DNA of 37,154 nt, taken from positions 1 through 37,154 of the forward strand of contig JQIS01000018.1 of NCBI GenBank assembly GCA_000830175.1, in the 5' to 3' direction. Shown in pieces: positions 21,077 through 35,024 of the stretch (position 1 is its first letter; every line of letters starts with the position of its first letter). Position numbers and translations under genes: made by a program. The notes below the pieces were generated by a model, which searched no databases, was not told where the DNA came from, and was given only the letters and a program-made list of their open reading frames with translations. The DNA comes from Sulfurovum sp. FS08-3. GTDB lineage: Bacteria > Campylobacterota > Campylobacteria > Campylobacterales > Sulfurovaceae.

Positions 21077-21355
21077 TTGATTCCTTTTAGTGATGAAGAG
21101 CTGCAACCCGCTGTAGCCAATGTGATAGAAAAAGTGAGACCCTCAATTGTACACGATGGAGGCGATATTAAACTTTTGGAGATTCGTAATGGAGTAGTCT
21201 ATGTCCAGCTTCAAGGGGCTTGTGTCGGGTGTGCAAGTTCGGGTACGACGATTAAGTATGGGGTTGAACGGCAAATGCAGATGCTTATTCATCCTGAAAT
21301 AACCGTGATAAATGTACCCATTGGCATGGAAGATAAAATAGATCAGATGAGATAG
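21077..21355 (+). CDS. Nfu-type Fe-S cluster carrier (NifU C-terminal domain)
   Basis: This 92-residue protein is the stand-alone NifU C-terminal (Nfu) domain, which carries a 4Fe-4S cluster through a CxxC pair for delivery to target enzymes. HDGGDIKLLEI and GACVGCASS with the CxxC are diagnostic. I choose TTG 21077 because AAGGAG (21064-21069) lies 7 bases upstream and a TATAAT box stands at 21039. The longer frame from TTG 21047 would start at or before the likely transcription start. The order Nfu-like, TPR-like protein, murE matches Campylobacter jejuni Cj1639-Cj1641 as I recall it. Confidence 0.9.
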   Translation: MIPFSDEELQPAVANVIEKVRPSIVHDGGDIKLLEIRNGVVYVQLQGACVGCASSGTTIKYGVERQMQMLIHPEITVINVPIGMEDKIDQMR

Positions 21356-25495: not shown

Positions 25496-26563
25496 TTATT
25501 TCAACTCCTCCAAATCATCTTTCACCAACTTTTCAAGTTCTTTGATTGTAGGTAGTGCAACTTTGTACTTTGATACAAAAAGATTCTCATCAAGCCCTGC
25601 GGTGGCATATTCTACTTTGACACTGTTTTTCTCTGTGCACAGTATGATACCTATTGGTGGATTATCCGTAGGTGTTGAAATCTCATTTTTGTAATAGTTG
25701 AGATAAAAGTTCATCTGTCCCACATCGGCATAACTAAAAGCTCTCACTTTCAAATCTACAAGCACATGACATTGAAGCACCCGATGATAAAAGACTAAAT
25801 CTATTCGGTCGTGTTCATTTTCTATTGATATTCTTTTTTGTCGTGCCTCAAAACAAAATCCACTGCCAAGCTCTAGCAAAAATGCTTCTATATGATTTAA
25901 CAAGGCACTCTCTAGGTCACTCTCACTGTAGCATTGTTTGCTCTCAAGCCCTGTAAACTCCAAAATATAAGGCTCTTTGATAATTGAAGCTGGATTGAAT
26001 ACCTCTTTTTTATTCTCTAGGGATTGAAGTAAACTTTTTTTATCAGCAGATAGACCCACTCTTTCAAAAAGTAGCGATTCTACTTGTCTTTTTAGCTCTC
26101 GCACACTCCAATTGCCTTTGATGGTTTCAACTTCGTAAAATGTTCTTTTGAGTTCATTATCTATTTTGATAAGTTCAATAAAATGGGTAAAAGTACAAGT
26201 TCTCAAAAGCTTATCTATAGGCACCTGCAAAGATTGGTCAGTCAGTGATTGACTTTTTTTATCAGAGATTTTAAATTGGTCAGACAGTGATTGACTTATT
26301 TGCGGATAGGTGAGATAAAATTGTCTCATAAGCTTTAAAGCAGTAGAAGAAACTCCTTTGATATGTACTAGCTTTTGAGCTAAATTCTCTATAACTCTTT
26401 GTCCATAAGTTGCCCTATCACTCCCATTTTGCTCATACTCGACTATATAGTAACCGATAACAAAATTTCTTAAAGTAAGATTGACACTTACACTTTGTAA
26501 GGCTTTTGCTTGAAAAGTATTGTGTGCTGTTTCGATATTTGAAATAAGTGTTGATAGGGTCAT
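25496..26563 (-). CDS. DUF1016/YhcG-type PD-(D/E)XK nuclease, coupled to the GHKL gene
   Basis: This is a 355-residue protein of the DUF1016 (YhcG) group. It has an N-terminal helical domain (about 1-175, containing LRNFVIGYYIVEYEQNG and GNWSVRELKRQ) and a C-terminal PD-(D/E)XK nuclease domain. In the latter, D255 (RIDLVFY), D270 and K272 (LVDLK) and Q283/Y287 (QMNFY, the QxxxY helix) fit the active site. A 23-bp direct repeat inside the gene, at 26233-26255 and 26275-26297 with one mismatch, encodes the twin QSLSDQ/QSLTDQ segments. The start overlaps the GHKL-nuclease stop in ATGA. DUF1016 proteins are common in defence islands; the function of this one is inferred. Confidence 0.88.
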   Translation of the reverse strand: MTLSTLISNIETAHNTFQAKALQSVSVNLTLRNFVIGYYIVEYEQNGSDRATYGQRVIENLAQKLVHIKGVSSTALKLMRQFYLTYPQISQSLSDQFKISDKKSQSLTDQSLQVPIDKLLRTCTFTHFIELIKIDNELKRTFYEVETIKGNWSVRELKRQVESLLFERVGLSADKKSLLQSLENKKEVFNPASIIKEPYILEFTGLESKQCYSESDLESALLNHIEAFLLELGSGFCFEARQKRISIENEHDRIDLVFYHRVLQCHVLVDLKVRAFSYADVGQMNFYLNYYKNEISTPTDNPPIGIILCTEKNSVKVEYATAGLDENLFVSKYKVALPTIKELEKLVKDDLEELK

Positions 26564-28722
26564 TTAGAATTACCCATCAACTTATCAATAAATATATCAT
26601 TTCTATTTTTTGCTCGTTCTAATAATGTTGAATATGAAATAATTTCTGTATATATATTAGCATCACCTTCTCTATAAATACCTGCAATCGGTTCACTAGG
26701 ACGAAATAGATAGTTAAAATGATATGAATGTTGAAATCTTGCTGCATGCATTCTAATTTCATTTGGTGTAAATTTTTCACCAATTAAATAACCATAAAAA
26801 GTATTAAATTGAAACTCTTTTTTTGCAAAATTCCAAATTAAAGCTGCATAGTTGTCAATTTGTTTTAGATGTTTTGCAATATTTACCTTGGTACTTTTAA
26901 ATTCAATTATAATACATTTACCCTCATTTGGAAATAGTAGAACATCGGGCTTATTGGCATAACGATTTTCATTTAAAGATGTAATATATTCTTTCTCGTC
27001 AGCACTCAATTCATCATTATCTTTTAATATTTTTTGACCATTAATTTGGATATCACCTAATCTTTTTTCTGATGCACCCCTAAAATAAATAAAATCTTCA
27101 CTAATTAACCATAAATCACTTTTATCGGGATTATTTGAACTTTGTTGAAAAATTAAATTATGCAGTAAGCTTTCATCAATCTCTCTTTTCTTATCAATCT
27201 CAATCTCTTTTTGAATATCTAACTCTTTGTCAAGTGTTTTTTGAAATAAATCAAGTACAATTTTTCTTCTTGCCACATAATGTGTAAGTGCAGTTCTATT
27301 TTGTAAAGGTATAGCTTTAACCAAAGATGAAGTTCTCTCATTTAGCTCATCTTGATAATCTTTTGAAGCAGGATTGAGTTCATTAATCCTATCTATTTGT
27401 TCTTTAATATTTGCATCTTTCTCTGCAATTAGTTTCGCATCTGCTTTATAGACTTTTCTCAAAATGGTTTCATCTGTATCTTGTACATTTATTTTTATAC
27501 TTTTTAAAGTATCTTTATCTAGCAAAAACATCTCTTGTAATCTATCAATATCTTGTTTATGTTTATTTGATATTTCAAGAATTTCACTATACATGTTCAA
27601 AATTTTATTATTAATTTGATTTTGTATATCATCAAGTAAAATCACTTCTTCTTGTAATAAAGGAGGACTCTTTTTAAATTCTTCTTCTGTAGTAATGTTA
27701 ATATTGCCTCTGATATTATTTTCATTATCAAGCCTATCAATATAATCACTTGAAATTAAAAATAAATATCTATGATTCTTTATAGCATCATCAGGTTTTA
27801 AAATTTCTAACTTAAACTTATCTGCAATATCTCCTTCTATAATTTCATGTTTACTTGTAAATTTAATATCATTATACTGAAGAGTTTTTTCATTAATTTT
27901 GAATGCTTTAATAAAAAACACTTCTTTGTTGTCATTTCTTAAAATAGTTTTACCATCAGGTGATAATTGTCTATATTCAATTTCTACTTCATCTTTTTTA
28001 TCATCAAGAGGTATATCCTCGGGAGTTATTTCAACGGTTTCTTTTAAATTTTCACTTTCATATCTATTGATACCTATACTAGGAAGATTATCTCTATTTT
28101 CACAAAAATAATCAAGGTAGTGTGAAACAATTTTTTGTTTTAATTCATTTGTAGTTAACTTATTGTAAAACTTTTTATCTTTTTCTTGCAATGGTTTTTT
28201 AAAAGTCACCTTTGTATATGTATTTTGTATTTCTACCTTTTGTGGTTCGTAGTGATAAATAATTGAATTATTTTCTAAAAAAGATTGTGACTTAGATAGT
28301 GTAAAAATTCTTTTTAAATATCCTGTACTTGATTTTTCATCTTTATATATGCTTTCAAATTCAATTTTTTCAAAAAAATGCATATATTGAACTCTCCCTG
28401 AACCATGGTTTGAGTAAGCTTTGCTGTTATCATACAAATTTTTAAATCTTTCAAATTCGTTGTCATTAAATCCAATGCCACTGTCTTTAATAATCAGTTC
28501 ATGCAATTCATAATCATTGGTTTCCCTTGAAAATAAATTGGGATTGAATTTTAAATCAATAGTAATTTGATTGCTTTTTATAGTGTCGTCCATCTTGATA
28601 GCTTCAAGAGAGTTGGTAAAAGCCTCATAGATTGGCTGTAGTTGAATTTTTGATTTAGAATGTTCAGAAAAAAATCCACTATATTTAATTCCTGTAGCAT
28701 TTATATATTTACCATTTATCAT
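26560..28722 (-). CDS. GHKL ATPase fused to a PD-(D/E)XK nuclease, candidate defence effector
   Basis: This 720-residue protein has an N-terminal GHKL (Hsp90/MutL/MORC-like) ATPase. The N-box is E33-AFT-N37-SLEA, the G1 motif DSGIG is at 80-84 with IGFND following, and a lid-like NHGSGR is at 105-110. The middle (about 350-560) is long, charged and helical, with coiled-coil character. The C-terminus is a PD-(D/E)XK nuclease: KPD with D593, IIEFK with E607 and K609, then QIDNY (Q621-Y625). The gene is markedly more AT-rich than the flanking core genes, a sign of transfer. It is coupled by ATGA to the DUF1016 gene. Linked GHKL ATPases and nucleases are known in restriction-like systems, but I cannot match this one to a named system. 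AGGAAA is 7-9 bases before the ATG. Confidence 0.85.
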   Translation of the reverse strand: MINGKYINATGIKYSGFFSEHSKSKIQLQPIYEAFTNSLEAIKMDDTIKSNQITIDLKFNPNLFSRETNDYELHELIIKDSGIGFNDNEFERFKNLYDNSKAYSNHGSGRVQYMHFFEKIEFESIYKDEKSSTGYLKRIFTLSKSQSFLENNSIIYHYEPQKVEIQNTYTKVTFKKPLQEKDKKFYNKLTTNELKQKIVSHYLDYFCENRDNLPSIGINRYESENLKETVEITPEDIPLDDKKDEVEIEYRQLSPDGKTILRNDNKEVFFIKAFKINEKTLQYNDIKFTSKHEIIEGDIADKFKLEILKPDDAIKNHRYLFLISSDYIDRLDNENNIRGNINITTEEEFKKSPPLLQEEVILLDDIQNQINNKILNMYSEILEISNKHKQDIDRLQEMFLLDKDTLKSIKINVQDTDETILRKVYKADAKLIAEKDANIKEQIDRINELNPASKDYQDELNERTSSLVKAIPLQNRTALTHYVARRKIVLDLFQKTLDKELDIQKEIEIDKKREIDESLLHNLIFQQSSNNPDKSDLWLISEDFIYFRGASEKRLGDIQINGQKILKDNDELSADEKEYITSLNENRYANKPDVLLFPNEGKCIIIEFKSTKVNIAKHLKQIDNYAALIWNFAKKEFQFNTFYGYLIGEKFTPNEIRMHAARFQHSYHFNYLFRPSEPIAGIYREGDANIYTEIISYSTLLERAKNRNDIFIDKLMGNSK

Positions 28723-28854
28723 TATATAGTTTTCCTTTTCTTAATTCAATCTTCATAAAATTATCTTAACTTTTCTTCTAAATTCTTCACTATAATAGTA
28801 AAGTAAGACGATATTTTGTAACAAATAGGTCTCTAATTTTTATCACAATTCCCA

Positions 28855-28968
28855 CTACTCAAAACTCCAATCATTCATAAGCTTCTGTTTATAGCTCAAC
28901 ATATCAAAATCCCTCACTCTTTTTGATACATCATCTCCTACATACCAAAATTTTACCATTTTTTCCAT
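28855..28968 (-). pseudogene. Possible small ORF or remnant in the island spacer
   Basis: A 37-codon frame with natural-looking composition: KFWYVGDDVSKRVRDFDM, then LSYKQKLMNDWSFE and a stop. AAGGA is only 2 bases from the first ATG, which is too close. A second ATG at 28959 is about 11 bases away. The region upstream gives protein-like text in other frames (KKYSFIDEETVV), so a decayed longer gene is as likely as a small live one. No family recognised. Confidence 0.25.
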
Positions 28969-28996
28969 TATCCTTGCACACATCAAACTACGGTTT
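28950..28996 (-). repeat. Direct repeat, copy 1
   Basis: A 47-base segment between ATTTTACCATT and CTACGGTTT. It matches copy 2 at 30132-30176 with three substitutions and one 2-base gap, in the same orientation. The two copies bracket the second DUF1016 gene, and both lie in leader regions of minus-strand genes. Confidence 0.8.
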
Positions 28997-29055
28997 CCTC
29001 ATCAATGAAAGAATATTTTTTATCTATACATCCTCTATTGGTGTTGCATTCCCCA

Positions 29056-30084
29056 TCAATCCTCGCCTTTTTGTTCTATTTCAAATACATCTCTCTCGAT
29101 CTCTCTTTTTAGTTCTTCTTCGCTTGGTAGATATATCTGATATTTTGAGGCAAAAAGATTTTCATTGTCATTTAAAATAGAGTATTTTACTACCGTTTCA
29201 TCTTTGTCGGTGCAGAGGATTATCCCGATAGTTGGGTTGTCATCTTTTGATTTTTCCAAATCATCAAACATTCGCACATACATATCCATTTGCCCCACAT
29301 CTTGATGGGTGAGTTTGCCTGTTTTGAGGTCTATGAGGACAAAGCATCTCAAAAGGTAATTATAAAAAACCAAATCAATATAAAAATCACTCATCTGGGT
29401 TTTGATTCGTTTTTGTCGAGCCACAAATGCAAACCCACGCCCCAACTCCAATAAAAACTCTTGGATTTTTCCCAACAAAGCCATTTCAAGTTCACTTTCT
29501 CTAAATGCCCGATTCTCTTTCAAATCCAAAAACTCCAAAACATAGGGGTCTTTGATAATCTCCTTTGATGTGAGTAATAAATCTTTTGTTTTTTCTTGTG
29601 CCTCTTGTATCACGGGATTTTTATCTTGGCTTGATAAAAGTCTTTCATAATAAAATGAGTTTATTTGCCTCTCCAAAGCCCTCACGCTCCAGTTTGACTT
29701 TATGGTTTCTTCAATATAATAATCCCTTGCTTTTGCATTTTCTACTCTCATAATAAGCCGATAGTGACTCCAACTCAATTCGCTACACAGTGTGTGGCAA
29801 TTTGGAAAAATCAAATAAAACTGTCGCATATTTCTAAGATTTTGTGGAGTAAATCCCGCACCAAAATCAGCTCTCAATTGGCTTGATAACTCATTGATAA
29901 GCTTTGAGCCATATTTTGCTTTTGTTTGCCCATTTTGTTCTACTTCGACTATCTTTTTTCCCACATTCCAGTAGGCTTCCACCATGATAAAATTGACTGA
30001 TTTATACGCTGTATCTCTTGCTTTTTGTAAGATAGATTTTATATCTTCATACAAACTATCTTGTCTATTTATCGCTTCTTTCAT
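29056..30084 (-). CDS. DUF1016/YhcG-type PD-(D/E)XK nuclease, second copy
   Basis: This 342-residue protein is a classical YhcG-type member. The N-terminal domain contains VEAYWNVGKKIVEVEQNG, NLRNMRQFY, ELSWSHYRLIMRVEN and SNWSVRALERQ. The C-terminal nuclease domain has D237 (YIDLVFY), D252 and K254 (LIDLK) and Q265/Y269 (QMDMY). It is a distant paralogue of the gene at 25496-26563; that one lacks the SWSHY motif and has a repeat insert instead. AGGGG precedes the ATG by about 8 bases. The gene is flanked by direct repeats (28950-28996 and 30132-30176), which suggests it arrived or moved as a cassette. Confidence 0.9.
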   Translation of the reverse strand: MKEAINRQDSLYEDIKSILQKARDTAYKSVNFIMVEAYWNVGKKIVEVEQNGQTKAKYGSKLINELSSQLRADFGAGFTPQNLRNMRQFYLIFPNCHTLCSELSWSHYRLIMRVENAKARDYYIEETIKSNWSVRALERQINSFYYERLLSSQDKNPVIQEAQEKTKDLLLTSKEIIKDPYVLEFLDLKENRAFRESELEMALLGKIQEFLLELGRGFAFVARQKRIKTQMSDFYIDLVFYNYLLRCFVLIDLKTGKLTHQDVGQMDMYVRMFDDLEKSKDDNPTIGIILCTDKDETVVKYSILNDNENLFASKYQIYLPSEEELKREIERDVFEIEQKGED

Positions 30085-30314: not shown

Positions 30315-32822
30315 TTATCTTCTATTGGTAGATGTTCGTGGGTTGTATGTGGAGGTAAATGTTGTCTCATCAAGCCCCGTTGCTATATCTTCCCACTTCA
30401 CCCATTTGAAGTTTGTCTCTGTGTCGTCGGGGTTTGCTGTGGTATCCATACCGTCTTGAGCGATAAATGCTCCATTTGGAAACTCGCTTCCAAGGGCTAT
30501 ATTGGTGACATCGATACTATCGGTCTCTGATGTGCCATCAATACCGTTGGTATCATCTACTATCGCAAAAGATTTAAGATAGGTGTTTTTCACACCCACT
30601 TTGGTTCTATCAAATACGCCATAGGTGTTGTTTCCTTGACTTGAAACAAAGAGATACCCCGTTCCATCATTTTTGTAGTAGATAGTCATGCCCTCCAAAT
30701 CCTCTACCAACCCATTTTCGCCCTCTTCATTTAAGAAGTCCTCTTGGGTAAGTTTGAGCGTAGGATTGCCATTGGGTTCTGCATCAAAGGTGTAGATACC
30801 CACACCCTCTTGAGCTACATAGGCTTTGCCGTACTCTTGATCTATCACAAACCCTTCTGCGTATTTATCCTCATCATCGGCTTCTAGTGTAATATCTCTT
30901 ACCTTATTCCAACCAATTTTGTCACCCTTTGCTACAAGCTCAAACTGTGCTGCGTTCCAATAGCCGTTTTGTGTAGCAAAAGCGTAAAATTTGCCCGTAA
31001 TAGGACTCTTGTAAACACCCTCACCATACGCCGTATCATCTCCCACTGTTTCTGCACTAAAAAGCTGAGGACTTGTGTAGTCTGTGACATCTACGATATA
31101 GGGAGCGTTTTCTTGGATTGTGTAAATCGCAAATTGGTTGGTCATTCTATCGGTAAAGAGGGCAATATCCACAAGTCTGCCACTGAGATTAAAATCATAC
31201 ATCACATCGACATTGTTAAATCGAATATTGCCTGGATTGGCATCGAGCAGTGTTTTGCCTTTTGTGTCATAAATCGAATAACCTGCCTCTTTTTGCGTAC
31301 CGATAATGAGACTCTTTGTGTTATCGGTTGGGTGTATCCAAAACGCCACATCGTCGGCATCGGGATTGTCCATCGTTGTTCGTGCTGTCTCAATAACGGG
31401 CTTGACAAGCATTGTGGCCGTTTGTGCGATGTTGGTAGAGGCAGGCGTGGTGTATTGACTATCAAATGTCCATGCTGAAATTGAACTCATTTTGTCGTCT
31501 TTGTACCGTGTGGCACTTATCGCATCGGTATCGTTTTTCAAATCCGAATAAGATGTTGAACCCCATCCGATATTATCAAGCAAAGTTGCACCAACGGGCA
31601 AATCGATTGTGCCATCGTCGTTTGTATCAAAATCGGTCGTCGTGCTTATCGCATGGTTTGGGCTATAGAGCAATACAAAAGCGTTGGGGCTAATGTTACC
31701 TTGTGTTGCCATCTCTACAGAGGCTACCGCACTGCCTGTTGCTATAGTAGCGTCTGTGCTTTTAATGACGGTAATGCCTGTCTCTTTTGCCGTTGTTCCT
31801 GTGAGATTTAGGACAAATGAAGGAGTGCCTTTTGAATTGGCATCAAGCGATACCAAATAGATACCCTCCATCGATTGTGCTGCATTGGAGAGCAACTCAA
31901 TGTAGGGATTGCCTGTCGTTACCACTTCGTTTAAAAGGACAAATGGAGCTTGTGTGAAGTTGTGTTTGCCTGGTGTGAGCATTGCTTTGGGAGGGAGATT
32001 GGAACTCATCTGAAGCGTATCGTAGAGTACCTCATCGGCTAATTCATCATCGCTCTTGTTTGGGTCTTCATAAATATCGCCGTTTGCCCACGCTGTAGGT
32101 GTCAAGGCTACAATGTTGTCATAAAATCTTGAAGCCGCATCGGGGTCACTGGCTGATTGTTTGAGTTTCACATCGCTGTATGTTTGCCCACCTGCTTCCC
32201 AACCTATCGAATCCAAAACGATTGCTCCCTTTGGAAGCTCCAACACTCCATCATTATCTTTGTCCAAATCGCTACCCGCTACAATAGGCGTATCGGATTG
32301 AATAAGCATAAAAGTGACGGCATCGTGCTCTAAAATACCATCTCCAAACGCCTCACCATCGACATCTTTATCGTATGTTTTGATGTTGGCATCATCTACA
32401 AGGGTGGTTTTTGGATCGGCAATCGTATTGTATTGGTTTGGATTTTGGATAAGAATGAGACCGTTTTCACCCACTTTGACCCCATTGAGTGATTTTGCAT
32501 AATCAACATATCCCCAATCCTCAAAAGGCTTCTCTTCATCACCCTTTTCATCGCCATCAAGTGCTACGACATAAATATTTTTGAGCGTACTACCTGCCGT
32601 ACCTCTTAGTTCGATGTACTGTTTTTCGTGTAGATCTTCAGGAATGTTTGCTTTGAGTTCATTCAAAACAAGGCTTTGATTGGCATCGTGCGTCGTCTCA
32701 TTGTTCTCATTGAGACTTTGATTGGTATCGTGTATCTCATCTGTACTCTTGGTGGAACTACTCCCGCAACCCGCTAGCAAAAGTGTCGCAACAACCATAG
32801 AACCCATAAATCTTTTTTTCAT
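30315..32822 (-). CDS. Lipoprotein with two LTD-like modules and a beta-propeller phytase domain
   Basis: This is an 835-residue surface or periplasmic lipoprotein. The signal peptide ends in the lipobox LLAGC (C19). A short Asn/Ser/Thr-rich linker follows. Two repeated modules then resemble lamin-tail (LTD) domains (about 50-250 and 293-460). Each has a Ca-type acidic motif followed by LPxGAxxLDxIGW: DLDKDNDGVLELP near 185 and DTNDDGTIDLP near 399. Residues from about 465 to the end match beta-propeller phytase (DADDVAFWIHP 488-498, FNNVDV near 535), a Ca-dependent enzyme releasing phosphate from inositol hexaphosphate. I start at ATG 32822 (MKKRFMG) because it opens the signal peptide and GAGG is upstream; the frame runs back to 32888. 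A phosphate-scavenging role is inferred. Confidence 0.88.
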   Translation of the reverse strand: MKKRFMGSMVVATLLLAGCGSSSTKSTDEIHDTNQSLNENNETTHDANQSLVLNELKANIPEDLHEKQYIELRGTAGSTLKNIYVVALDGDEKGDEEKPFEDWGYVDYAKSLNGVKVGENGLILIQNPNQYNTIADPKTTLVDDANIKTYDKDVDGEAFGDGILEHDAVTFMLIQSDTPIVAGSDLDKDNDGVLELPKGAIVLDSIGWEAGGQTYSDVKLKQSASDPDAASRFYDNIVALTPTAWANGDIYEDPNKSDDELADEVLYDTLQMSSNLPPKAMLTPGKHNFTQAPFVLLNEVVTTGNPYIELLSNAAQSMEGIYLVSLDANSKGTPSFVLNLTGTTAKETGITVIKSTDATIATGSAVASVEMATQGNISPNAFVLLYSPNHAISTTTDFDTNDDGTIDLPVGATLLDNIGWGSTSYSDLKNDTDAISATRYKDDKMSSISAWTFDSQYTTPASTNIAQTATMLVKPVIETARTTMDNPDADDVAFWIHPTDNTKSLIIGTQKEAGYSIYDTKGKTLLDANPGNIRFNNVDVMYDFNLSGRLVDIALFTDRMTNQFAIYTIQENAPYIVDVTDYTSPQLFSAETVGDDTAYGEGVYKSPITGKFYAFATQNGYWNAAQFELVAKGDKIGWNKVRDITLEADDEDKYAEGFVIDQEYGKAYVAQEGVGIYTFDAEPNGNPTLKLTQEDFLNEEGENGLVEDLEGMTIYYKNDGTGYLFVSSQGNNTYGVFDRTKVGVKNTYLKSFAIVDDTNGIDGTSETDSIDVTNIALGSEFPNGAFIAQDGMDTTANPDDTETNFKWVKWEDIATGLDETTFTSTYNPRTSTNRR

Positions 32823-32849
32823 CGCTTTAACCTCTGTGTTTTTATAAAT

Positions 32850-32951
32850 GGGATATGATACAAAGAAACAATTACACAATACAAACACAACAATTTCAAT
32901 TTGGCAACATTGGACTTTTCTCTATCCCAATCGGTTTAAATACCATATCCC
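32850..32951. promoter_or_regulatory. Separated inverted repeat upstream of the phytase gene
   Basis: GGGATATGATA (32850-32860) and TACCATATCCC (32941-32951) are inverted copies matching at 10 of 11 positions, about 80 bases apart, upstream of the phytase ATG. They could be two half-sites of an operator. The spacer 32823-33033 is otherwise AT-rich without a gene. No Pho-box could be confirmed. Confidence 0.3.
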
Positions 32952-33017: not shown

Positions 33018-33036
33018 TAGGCAAAAGCATTGCCTA
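33018..33036 (-). terminator. Hairpin over the stop codon of the NifU-like gene
   Basis: TAGGCAA-loop-TTGCCTA, a seven-pair stem with a five-base loop, overlapping the stop codon of the NifU-like gene. On the minus strand it is followed by TTATGC, not by a T-run, so termination would be weak. TAGGCAA occurs once more at 33039-33045. Confidence 0.35.
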
Positions 33037-33777
33037 AATAGGCAATACCCGAATATGCTCATCGAGTTCTTTTTTGAGTGTCGCTTCGATAGCAAAAAGC
33101 GTACCCGTATTGGCACTTGCACATCCGCTACAAGCCCCCAAATAGCGAATATAAATGTCAATATGCGGACCGTTTTCTTTGATATCGAGTATCTCCATAT
33201 TGCCTCCATCGGCGACAAGCATGGCACGTATATGCTCATCGATTACCCTATCGACGGCTTTGACTTTGCCTACGATGGTGAGGTCTCTAAAGGTATCCTC
33301 TTTTTGTTGGGGCGTTTGCGTGGCTTTGGGTATCTCCAAAGAGGCTACCTCTACGCCTTTGTAGGTCGCTATTGCCTCATAAATAACCTCTTGCATCGTT
33401 TGCACTTCGCTTAGTTTACGAGAGGGAAATGCAGGGGTATCGTCGCTATCACGCAAGGCTTTTTCGATACGTTCAATCGTCAATCCCAACACCTCATCGA
33501 CGCTTTTGCCTAGACAAAGCTCCACTGCTACATCACTACTGGCTATCATCACGGGTGTACCGTAGCATTGAAATTTGGCAACTTTTATCGTATCGTTTGC
33601 CTCCTCAATCGCCATGTAGAGTCGTATCGCTCCCGCACCACGAGGGGCTACGATAAGCTTCGTTCCCCACTCCAACGCCTCTTGGGGTGTGATTTCTCCT
33701 TGATGGAGTGGGGCATTCATACGCTCCATCATCGTTTGGCTGTAGTGGTTGTTGGCTACTAGACTATCTATTCCCAT
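33034..33777 (-). CDS. NifU-like protein lacking the IscU scaffold cysteines
   Basis: This 247-residue protein resembles Campylobacterota NifU. It shares the YSQTMMERMN, LHQGEIT and GTKLIVAP start and keeps IASSDVAVELCLGKSVDEVLG and EKALRDSDDTPA. However, the three cluster-scaffold cysteines are gone. By alignment from memory with H. pylori-type NifU, ACGD has become GAGA (around 47-50), FGCGTA has become YGTPVM (72-77), and KMHCSV has become KLSEVQ (121-126). The central 2Fe-2S cysteine domain of NifU is also missing. The C-terminal Nfu domain is intact, with HIRAMLVADGGNMEILDI and C216-SG-C219. ATG 33777 is chosen for its AAGGAGATAACA leader; the frame is open to 33846. It overlaps the NifS-like gene by 14 bases. 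Confidence 0.85.
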   Translation of the reverse strand: MGIDSLVANNHYSQTMMERMNAPLHQGEITPQEALEWGTKLIVAPRGAGAIRLYMAIEEANDTIKVAKFQCYGTPVMIASSDVAVELCLGKSVDEVLGLTIERIEKALRDSDDTPAFPSRKLSEVQTMQEVIYEAIATYKGVEVASLEIPKATQTPQQKEDTFRDLTIVGKVKAVDRVIDEHIRAMLVADGGNMEILDIKENGPHIDIYIRYLGACSGCASANTGTLFAIEATLKKELDEHIRVLPI

Positions 33778-34789
33778 TGTTATCTCCTTGTGAAATGGTT
33801 CGTAATCGTTTGACCGCTTTTTGTAGCGCTTCAATAGTATCATCAATCTCCTCTTGGGTTGTCAATCGACTCAACGCAAAACTTACACTGTTTGGCTTTT
33901 CGCCCATACTTGCTACGATACCCGCTTGACCCAAATCCCACAACATCGCTTCACCGTGAACACCCTCAAAGGCTAGAGCAAGAGTATGAGGAGTGCGTAT
34001 CGTTTGAGGGGTTAATGAAAGGGTATGGGGAAGTGTAAGCAAAGCCTCTTCGAGTCTATCACGCAACTCTTTGGTATCTTCTAGCTCAAAATCCATCGCA
34101 TCAAAAGCAAGTTCCATTGCTTTGCCCATACCAATGACTCCAGCGACATTGACGTTACTCTCCCAAAACACCCTATCAAGCTCTTTGCCTTGACGCATAT
34201 AAAGCCCTCCGACTCCTTGGGGCCCGTGAAACGTATTGGCACGAAAGCTCACATAATCCACAGGCGTATCTTTGAGCGAGATAGGGATTTTGCCAACGGC
34301 GTGGGTAGCGTCGCTATGAAACAATACCCCTTTGGCTTGACACATAGCAGCGATGGAGTCTATGGGAAAGATCGCCCCACTCTTACCACTAGCCCACGGT
34401 ATCGAGACAAATGCCGTTTGAGGAGTAATAAAATCATACACCGTATGCGCTTCAACCACTCCTTGGGCATTGAGAGGCAAATAGGTCACCTTAACGCCTT
34501 TGGATTGCAAAAAATCAATACTTTTAGTTAAAGATTGCTCTTTGATAGTAAGAATATGATTTTTTTTGCTATGAAGAATGTGTTGAAAATAGAGTCCCCA
34601 TACCACCATAGACTCTTGTGCCATTGGGATAATGGTATCTTCGTGCGAGGCATTGAGTGTGGCGTAGATACGTTCATAGGCATCTCTTAGGGGTTGATAC
34701 TCATTCTCACGCCCCTCAAAAGAGTCCATAAAGGCTTTGACTTGCAAATCAAGCGTAGTAGCGGTGTTGTTGTCCAAATAGATAGGCAT
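33764..34789 (-). CDS. NifS-like aminotransferase-fold protein lacking the PLP lysine and catalytic cysteine
   Basis: This 341-residue protein follows NifS/IscS throughout (PIYLDNNTATTLDL, LRDAYERIYATLNAS, GVKVTYLPLNAQGVVEA, FHGPQGVGGLYMRQG), yet the active site is stripped. At the Schiff-base motif SAHKFHGPKG it reads RANTFHGPQG, so lysine is T186. The PLP-stacking histidine region EHPAV reads EQSLT. NNETG reads SGKSG (134-138). The Q of DAVQA is H163, although D160 stays. The loop that carries the catalytic cysteine is missing (ASMGEKPNSV). No frameshift or stop occurs. AAGGAG is 4 bases before the ATG. Together with the NifU-like gene it forms an overlapping pair of apparent pseudoenzymes. 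A working NifS/NifU must lie elsewhere in the genome. Confidence 0.88.
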   Translation of the reverse strand: MPIYLDNNTATTLDLQVKAFMDSFEGRENEYQPLRDAYERIYATLNASHEDTIIPMAQESMVVWGLYFQHILHSKKNHILTIKEQSLTKSIDFLQSKGVKVTYLPLNAQGVVEAHTVYDFITPQTAFVSIPWASGKSGAIFPIDSIAAMCQAKGVLFHSDATHAVGKIPISLKDTPVDYVSFRANTFHGPQGVGGLYMRQGKELDRVFWESNVNVAGVIGMGKAMELAFDAMDFELEDTKELRDRLEEALLTLPHTLSLTPQTIRTPHTLALAFEGVHGEAMLWDLGQAGIVASMGEKPNSVSFALSRLTTQEEIDDTIEALQKAVKRLRTISQGDNNGNR

Positions 34790-35024
34790 AGGACTCCTTA
34801 AAATTAGACTATTTTACTCTTAAAATGCTATACTACATCAACAACTCTTAAATTTATCTTTTTGAAACCCAACTCTTGATTTGGCTCATAGGTTACACAC
34901 TCTCAAACCCATCCACTTCGACGCTTCACTTATGCAAAGTTACTGCTATTAAGTTAAGTCATCAATAAATTTTCTTACATTTCACTTTGACAAAGAATGG
35001 AATGAGAAAAACGAATGGATAAAC

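Follow-up and report, generated by a model that had tools for sequence, protein, structure and literature searches.

A nifS/nifU-like gene pair of Sulfurovum with catalytic residues lost from both partners and purifying selection on the altered forms

Gene layout and loss of the catalytic sites

The window, by which we mean the whole 37,154-nucleotide stretch of DNA that was analysed, contains two overlapping minus-strand genes that encode a NifS-like and a NifU-like protein (Table 1). The first-pass annotation, made from the letters alone, had described them as an operon with good ribosome-binding sites; its coordinates, strands and 14-base overlap are correct, as is its call of the ribosome sites, with AAGGAG lying before both ATGs. 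A sigma-70 scan showed no site on the minus strand before the nifS-like gene, and no signal that exceeded shuffled sequences. In Pfam, the NifS-like protein matches Aminotran_5 (E=1e-30), and the NifU-like protein matches NifU_N (1.7e-21) and NifU/PF01106 (1.1e-18). In what follows, G000 is the genome of the window, and G012, G013, G014 and G015 are genomes of the same genus.

Table 1. Features of the nifS-like/nifU-like pair, in window coordinates
Feature	Position	Strand	Remarks
nifS-like pseudoenzyme gene	33764..34789	-	341 aa; fold type I, aminotransferase class V (NifS/IscS fold), PLP site gone
nifU-like gene	33034..33777	-	247 aa; degenerate IscU (NifU_N) domain, linker and intact Nfu domain; ferredoxin domain lost
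nifS-like/nifU-like overlap	33764..33777	-	14 bases; translational coupling likely
Shine-Dalgarno of nifS-like, AAGGAG	34794..34799	-	4 nt 5' of ATG
Shine-Dalgarno of nifU-like, AAGGAG	33784..33789	-	6 nt 5' of ATG; within nifS-like gene
nifS-like codon 186, ACG (Thr)	34232..34234	-	PLP-lysine position (E. coli IscS K206); G012 has AGG (Arg)
nifS-like junction GEKPNSVS, residues 296-303	33881..33904	-	site of deleted 22-residue catalytic-cysteine loop; R354 position is Ser
Degenerate NifU_N/IscU domain, about residues 12-143	33349..33744	-	ligands C37, D39, C63, H105, C106 gone; K103 kept
Nfu domain of NifU-like, about residues 160-247	33037..33300	-	best-conserved region of the pair (78% identical to canonical consensus); dN/dS 0.047
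Nfu CxxC motif, C216-S-G-C219	33121..33132	-	cluster-ligand motif; kept in G012

To assess the NifS-like active site, the protein was aligned with 20 canonical NifS proteins from the family and order, and 11 PLP/substrate positions were scored in E. coli IscS numbering (T76, H104, N155, D180, Q183, S203, H205, K206, T243, C328 and R354). All 11 are invariant across the 20 canonical relatives; T76, N155, S203, H205 and T243 are residues that we take to be PLP/substrate positions. H104, D180, Q183, K206, C328 and R354 come from the published IscS active-site list (PMC9978102). The NifS-like protein keeps one of the 11 (D180, D160 here), whereas it keeps 111 of 209 invariant columns elsewhere (Fisher p=0.005). 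At the position of the PLP lysine, K206, which is K in 20 of 20 canonical relatives and in the second, type-b NifS described below, it has T in G000 and R in G012. In-frame deletions have removed 22 residues at the catalytic-cysteine loop (C328), 12 at the N-terminal substrate loop, 4 from the PLP-phosphate loop, 2 at the H104 site and 9 from the GG-RSGT loop, and C150 is the sole remaining cysteine. The emptied PLP pocket carries substitutions that are common to both species (S203→R, H205→N, Q183→H and R354→S). Against the family model TIGR03403 (nifS_epsilon), the protein scores 299.4 bits (E=3e-89), compared with a curated NCBIfam cut-off of 587.7.

The first-pass claim that T186 replaces the PLP lysine and that the catalytic-cysteine loop is missing was therefore right and, with 10 of the 11 active-site residues gone, understated. 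Because any one of the substitutions H104Q, Q183E and K206A inactivates IscS (PMC9978102), desulfurase activity of the NifS-like protein is not expected. Conservation of T186, which had been proposed as a check together with that of N185 and C216/C219, was not found: the sole orthologue has R at that position, and a special role for T186 was rejected on this ground. N185 is kept in G012; what persists at position 186 is the absence of lysine.

In the NifU-like protein, the ligands of the IscU site are lost in both species, C37 by deletion and the others by substitution (D39→G, C63→T, H105→S and C106→E). A deletion of ~66-68 residues after residue 148 has taken away the ferredoxin domain with its four cysteines, and the protein scores 83.8 bits against TIGR02000 (NifU), compared with a curated NCBIfam cut-off of 273.3. 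The annotation had reported the loss of three scaffold cysteines and of the ferredoxin domain, with the Nfu CxxC kept; this holds, and the scaffold Asp has gone as well. C216 and C219 are both present in both species.

Selection on the pair and its origin

One other genome, the Sulfurovum MAG G012 (isolate SulCav_AS07-7), was found to carry orthologues of both genes, at 95% identity and with identical catalytic losses wherever the two copies can be compared; its nifS-like gene starts at residue 51, where a contig ends, which places residues 1-50 outside the comparison. Further orthologues were found neither among 175 family genomes and 397 phylum genomes searched with the NifU-like protein nor among 399 order genomes searched with the NifS-like protein, and scans of viral contigs and, with strict peptide patterns, of 84,980 species genomes yielded G012 alone. 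A sequencing or frameshift artefact was rejected, as a separate assembly shows the same open frames and the same losses. The gene neighbours of the pair differ between the two genomes, a phytase gene in G000 and TerC/TerD-like genes in G012, and no conserved neighbour names a client.

Because the catalytic losses are common to both copies, all of the divergence between G000 and G012 arose after the loss. In this comparison, on which all of the selection estimates rest and which involves two genomes, dN was 0.026 and dS 0.216 for the NifS-like gene, and dN was 0.026 and dS 0.227 for the NifU-like gene, giving dN/dS of ~0.12 for each. The dead pair lies at the median of sampled G000–G012 gene pairs (0.119, from 19 usable pairs in the sampled regions, including the dead pair itself and a few antisense frames). 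Amino-acid changes number 16 in the NifS-like and 13 in the NifU-like protein, compared with means of 36.5 and 32.0 when the same number of changes is placed at random; both counts fall below all 2000 of these neutral simulations, the lowest of which gave 25 for the NifS-like protein. Neither gene has a stop or an indel between the species. By region, dN/dS is 0.047 for the Nfu domain, 0.17 for NifU_N and 0.12 for the NifS-like protein. Read in two antisense frames, this DNA gives 1.9 and 5.5, which places the constraint in the proposed frames. Purifying selection thus acts on the dead forms of both genes. The first-pass view that the pair is not decaying is well supported by the orthologue, the dN/dS and the absence of stops and frameshifts, and the opposite outcome that it had envisaged, a pair missing from all relatives and under relaxed selection, is not what was found.

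A tree of NifS proteins unites the NifS-like protein with the canonical G014a, from the same genus, and with G143 (support 82/95). The stem of the NifS-like branch measures 2.2 changes per column and its tips 0.03, a shape that suggests rapid change and constraint afterwards. The NifU tree leaves the NifU-like protein on a long branch, without placement inside the family; a common origin of both genes is instead indicated by the NifS tree together with the operon. The dead pair would accordingly descend from the ordinary nifSU of the family, a descent shown by the tree for the NifS-like member.

A check for a canonical nifSU elsewhere in the genome, also proposed by the annotation, revealed an intact second nifSU on contig C35 of G000 (66707-68944; L042:6705-8945). 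This type-b pair belongs to another lineage, the two lineages being ~34% identical in NifS. Within the family, type-b NifS was found in G000 and G014 only, and a fragment of the matching NifU lies at a contig end in G012; in the sampled order, two further families, f8 and f15, include genera that have type-b NifS, with the K and C present. In several of these f8 and f15 genera, the search of the 399 order genomes with the NifS-like protein gave no match of the original type. The simplest reading is that type b was acquired in this genus, and catalysis is now apparently done by this intact and apparently foreign pair. The genus offers a natural series, with the original pair only (G015, 77% complete), both pairs intact (the sister species G014), and a dead original (G000 and G012) beside an acquired pair (type b, intact in G000).

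Predicted folds, known relatives and a possible role

AlphaFold models (AF2) were built from input alignments that included canonical homologues, a bias toward the canonical fold. In them, the NifS-like protein (pLDDT 87.5) superposes on 5zss with a Z of 44.7 and an rmsd of 1.6 across 335 residues, and the NifU-like protein has an IscU fold with a Z of 17.2 across 122 residues and the ligands absent. Both the NifS and the IscU fold are thus predicted to be retained. With reference to the published map of the IscS–IscU interface (PMC2854127), the interface segment in the helix α8 region is kept ((H)GEAMLWD versus (E)GEAMLWD). The C-terminal helix still begins with RLR-IS, and on the IscU side K103 is present. 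Two parts of the IscU-binding surface, the E347 turn and the C-terminal tail, are missing from the NifS-like protein.

The parent family of the NifS-like protein is the Campylobacterota NifS (TIGR03403; Hydrogenimonas thermophila 5zsp and Helicobacter pylori 5wt2), to which its model aligns with 43-49% structural-alignment identity and a predicted Z of ~44.7; unlike those enzymes, it has neither the PLP lysine nor the Cys loop, nor 10 of the 11 active-site residues. The NifU-like protein resembles the NifU scaffold (TIGR02000; NifU_N, ferredoxin and Nfu) in its NifU_N fold, its Nfu CxxC and its place after nifS, and differs in having no scaffold cysteines, Asp or ferredoxin domain. Archaeoglobus fulgidus IscS also has neither PLP lysine nor desulfurase activity and gives a cysteine ligand to the IscU-bound cluster, and Methanosarcina acetivorans IscS1, which has no PLP lysine, may resemble it; both adjoin an IscU (PMC7585200). 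The predicted NifS-like fold matches the A. fulgidus protein (4eb5/4hvk) with a Z of 39.7-40.8. However, the cysteine loop of the NifS-like protein has been deleted and its IscU partner is dead too, so that the cysteine-ligand mechanism of A. fulgidus is inapplicable. In E. coli NfuA, a degenerate A-type domain targets the protein and the C-terminal Nfu carries a [4Fe-4S] cluster (PMC8593673). The NifU-like protein may follow the same logic, with a ligand-less N-terminal domain joined to an Nfu domain for which we propose cluster carriage, except that its degenerate domain is of the NifU_N/IscU rather than the A type and that a dead NifS partner is present. The standalone Nfu of H. pylori (PMC8144621) and that of the window exemplify an Nfu carrier in a NIF-only organism, as here, but lack both an adaptor domain and a partnering NifS gene. 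Single dead Fe–S partners are therefore known, namely the lysine-less A. fulgidus IscS and NfuA's degenerate domain. In the present operon the two partners are both dead, and no description of such a NIF pair was found in the open-licence literature.

It is reasonable to infer that the role of the pair is common to both proteins, given their joint loss, overlapping genes and similar constraint. Our best explanation, offered tentatively and at somewhat less than an even chance, is that the pair is a neofunctionalised, non-catalytic offshoot of the nifSU native to the lineage, a dead NifS dimer together with an Nfu carrier that bears an IscU adaptor. Gain of the second, type-b nifSU would have released the original pair from catalysis, the catalytic loops of both proteins would then have been lost by in-frame deletions and substitutions, and ordinary purifying selection would have taken hold of the dead pair. 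The NifS-like protein, retaining the NifS dimer fold, would serve as a structural platform only, onto which the NifU-like protein might dock through its former scaffold domain, with an Fe–S cluster held by the CxxC of its Nfu domain. Type-b NifSU would build this cluster, which would be handed to particular apo-proteins; the dead IscU domain, together with the NifS-like platform, would act as an adaptor that chooses the donor or client, much as NfuA uses its degenerate A-type domain. What we infer is the sequence of events, the formation of a complex, the binding of a cluster and its delivery to clients. This platform-and-carrier arrangement is favoured by the predicted folds, the partly kept interface, the Nfu domain being the most constrained part, the presence of an intact type-b nifSU and the NfuA precedent; against it count the lost C-terminal tail and E347 turn, the lack of a conserved neighbour that names a client, the standalone Nfu and complete NifU that the genome already has, and the occurrence of the pair in two genomes only, one of them cut by a contig end. 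That the two proteins form a two-component pseudoenzyme complex, evolved as a unit after NIF replacement and now a dedicated Fe–S chaperone or regulator, seems to us evenly balanced between true and false.

The retention of predicted folds and interface parts with all catalytic parts gone, and the active-looking type-b partner in the same genome, would also suit a regulatory pair, dominant-negative or titrating, in which the dead proteins bind type-b NifS or NifU or their partners and curb or redirect cluster synthesis. We consider this unlikely, as ~34% identity between the NifS lineages makes mixed dimers less probable and the highly constrained Nfu CxxC domain would be superfluous for pure titration. 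It is a little harder to believe that the Nfu domain alone matters, the NifU-like protein being a plain Nfu carrier whose companion gene, nifS-like, persists mainly to serve its folding or coupled translation. The low dN/dS of Nfu against 0.12-0.17 elsewhere is consistent with such an arrangement, as are the gene overlap and the nifU-like ribosome site within the nifS-like gene; yet the NifS-like protein is itself constrained, unlike a mere leader gene (16 changes, where neutral simulations give 25 or more), and NifU_N is constrained too.

The pocket residues newly common to both species raise the prospect of a function outside Fe–S delivery, such as another ligand held in the emptied PLP pocket with the NifU-like protein as partner, which we judge improbable in view of the intact CxxC, the strong constraint on the Nfu domain and a gene context that indicates no other pathway. 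Ordinary decay, in which a redundant nifSU becomes a pair of pseudogenes after takeover by type b, would account for the very long stem and for the absence of the pair from all other relatives searched, and type b does render it dispensable. The selection tests reject decay, however: dN/dS is ~0.12 after the loss, neither gene in either species has a frameshift, stop or indel, the ribosome sites are intact, neutral simulations never reach the observed conservation and the antisense frames lie far higher, at 1.9-5.5, which leaves this reading very improbable. Residual desulfurase activity or PLP binding is barely credible. Some PLP is retained by IscS K206A (PMC9978102) and D160 is kept, but H104Q, Q183E and K206A each abolish IscS activity, and T76, H104, N155, Q183, S203, H205, K206, T243, C328 and R354 are all gone here. 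The natural series within the genus makes it possible to ask whether NifS and NifU also do something other than catalysis for which a foreign NifSU is no substitute.

Other Fe–S genes, and neighbours of the pair in the window

Type-b NifS carries M at the R354 position of IscS, or I in another family, and S at T243; it appears to be the sole NifS in several Campylobacterota genera of f8 and f15, which would make it an unusual housekeeping desulfurase. A rhodanese-like open reading frame overlaps the end of the type-b nifU, and radical SAM genes resembling moaA and queE come next; G000 and G012 share this arrangement (L042:4124-6946 (-) and L041). No match to the SufB/SufD family of the SUF core was found in the genus. 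The standalone Nfu gene of the window lies at 21113-21310 (+), 12 kb from the pair. G013, 99% complete, has a standalone Nfu only, and no NifU_N, NifS-type match or SufB/D was found in it, a pattern that reflects either an assembly gap or an unfamiliar Fe–S route.

Directly downstream of the pair, at 30315-32888 (-), is a gene for an 857-residue protein with a C-terminal phytase domain, which does not adjoin the pair in G012. A PADLOC resemblance of the NifS-like protein to DndA/SspA was set aside as merely family-level NifS similarity. Farther along, two paralogues of the DUF1016/YhcG-type PDDEXK nucleases (25496-26563 and 29056-30084 (-); PADLOC PDC-S02) flank a gene for a 720-residue protein (26560-28722 (-)) with no Pfam or PADLOC match, and the whole of 25496-30084 (-) looks like a defence-type cluster.
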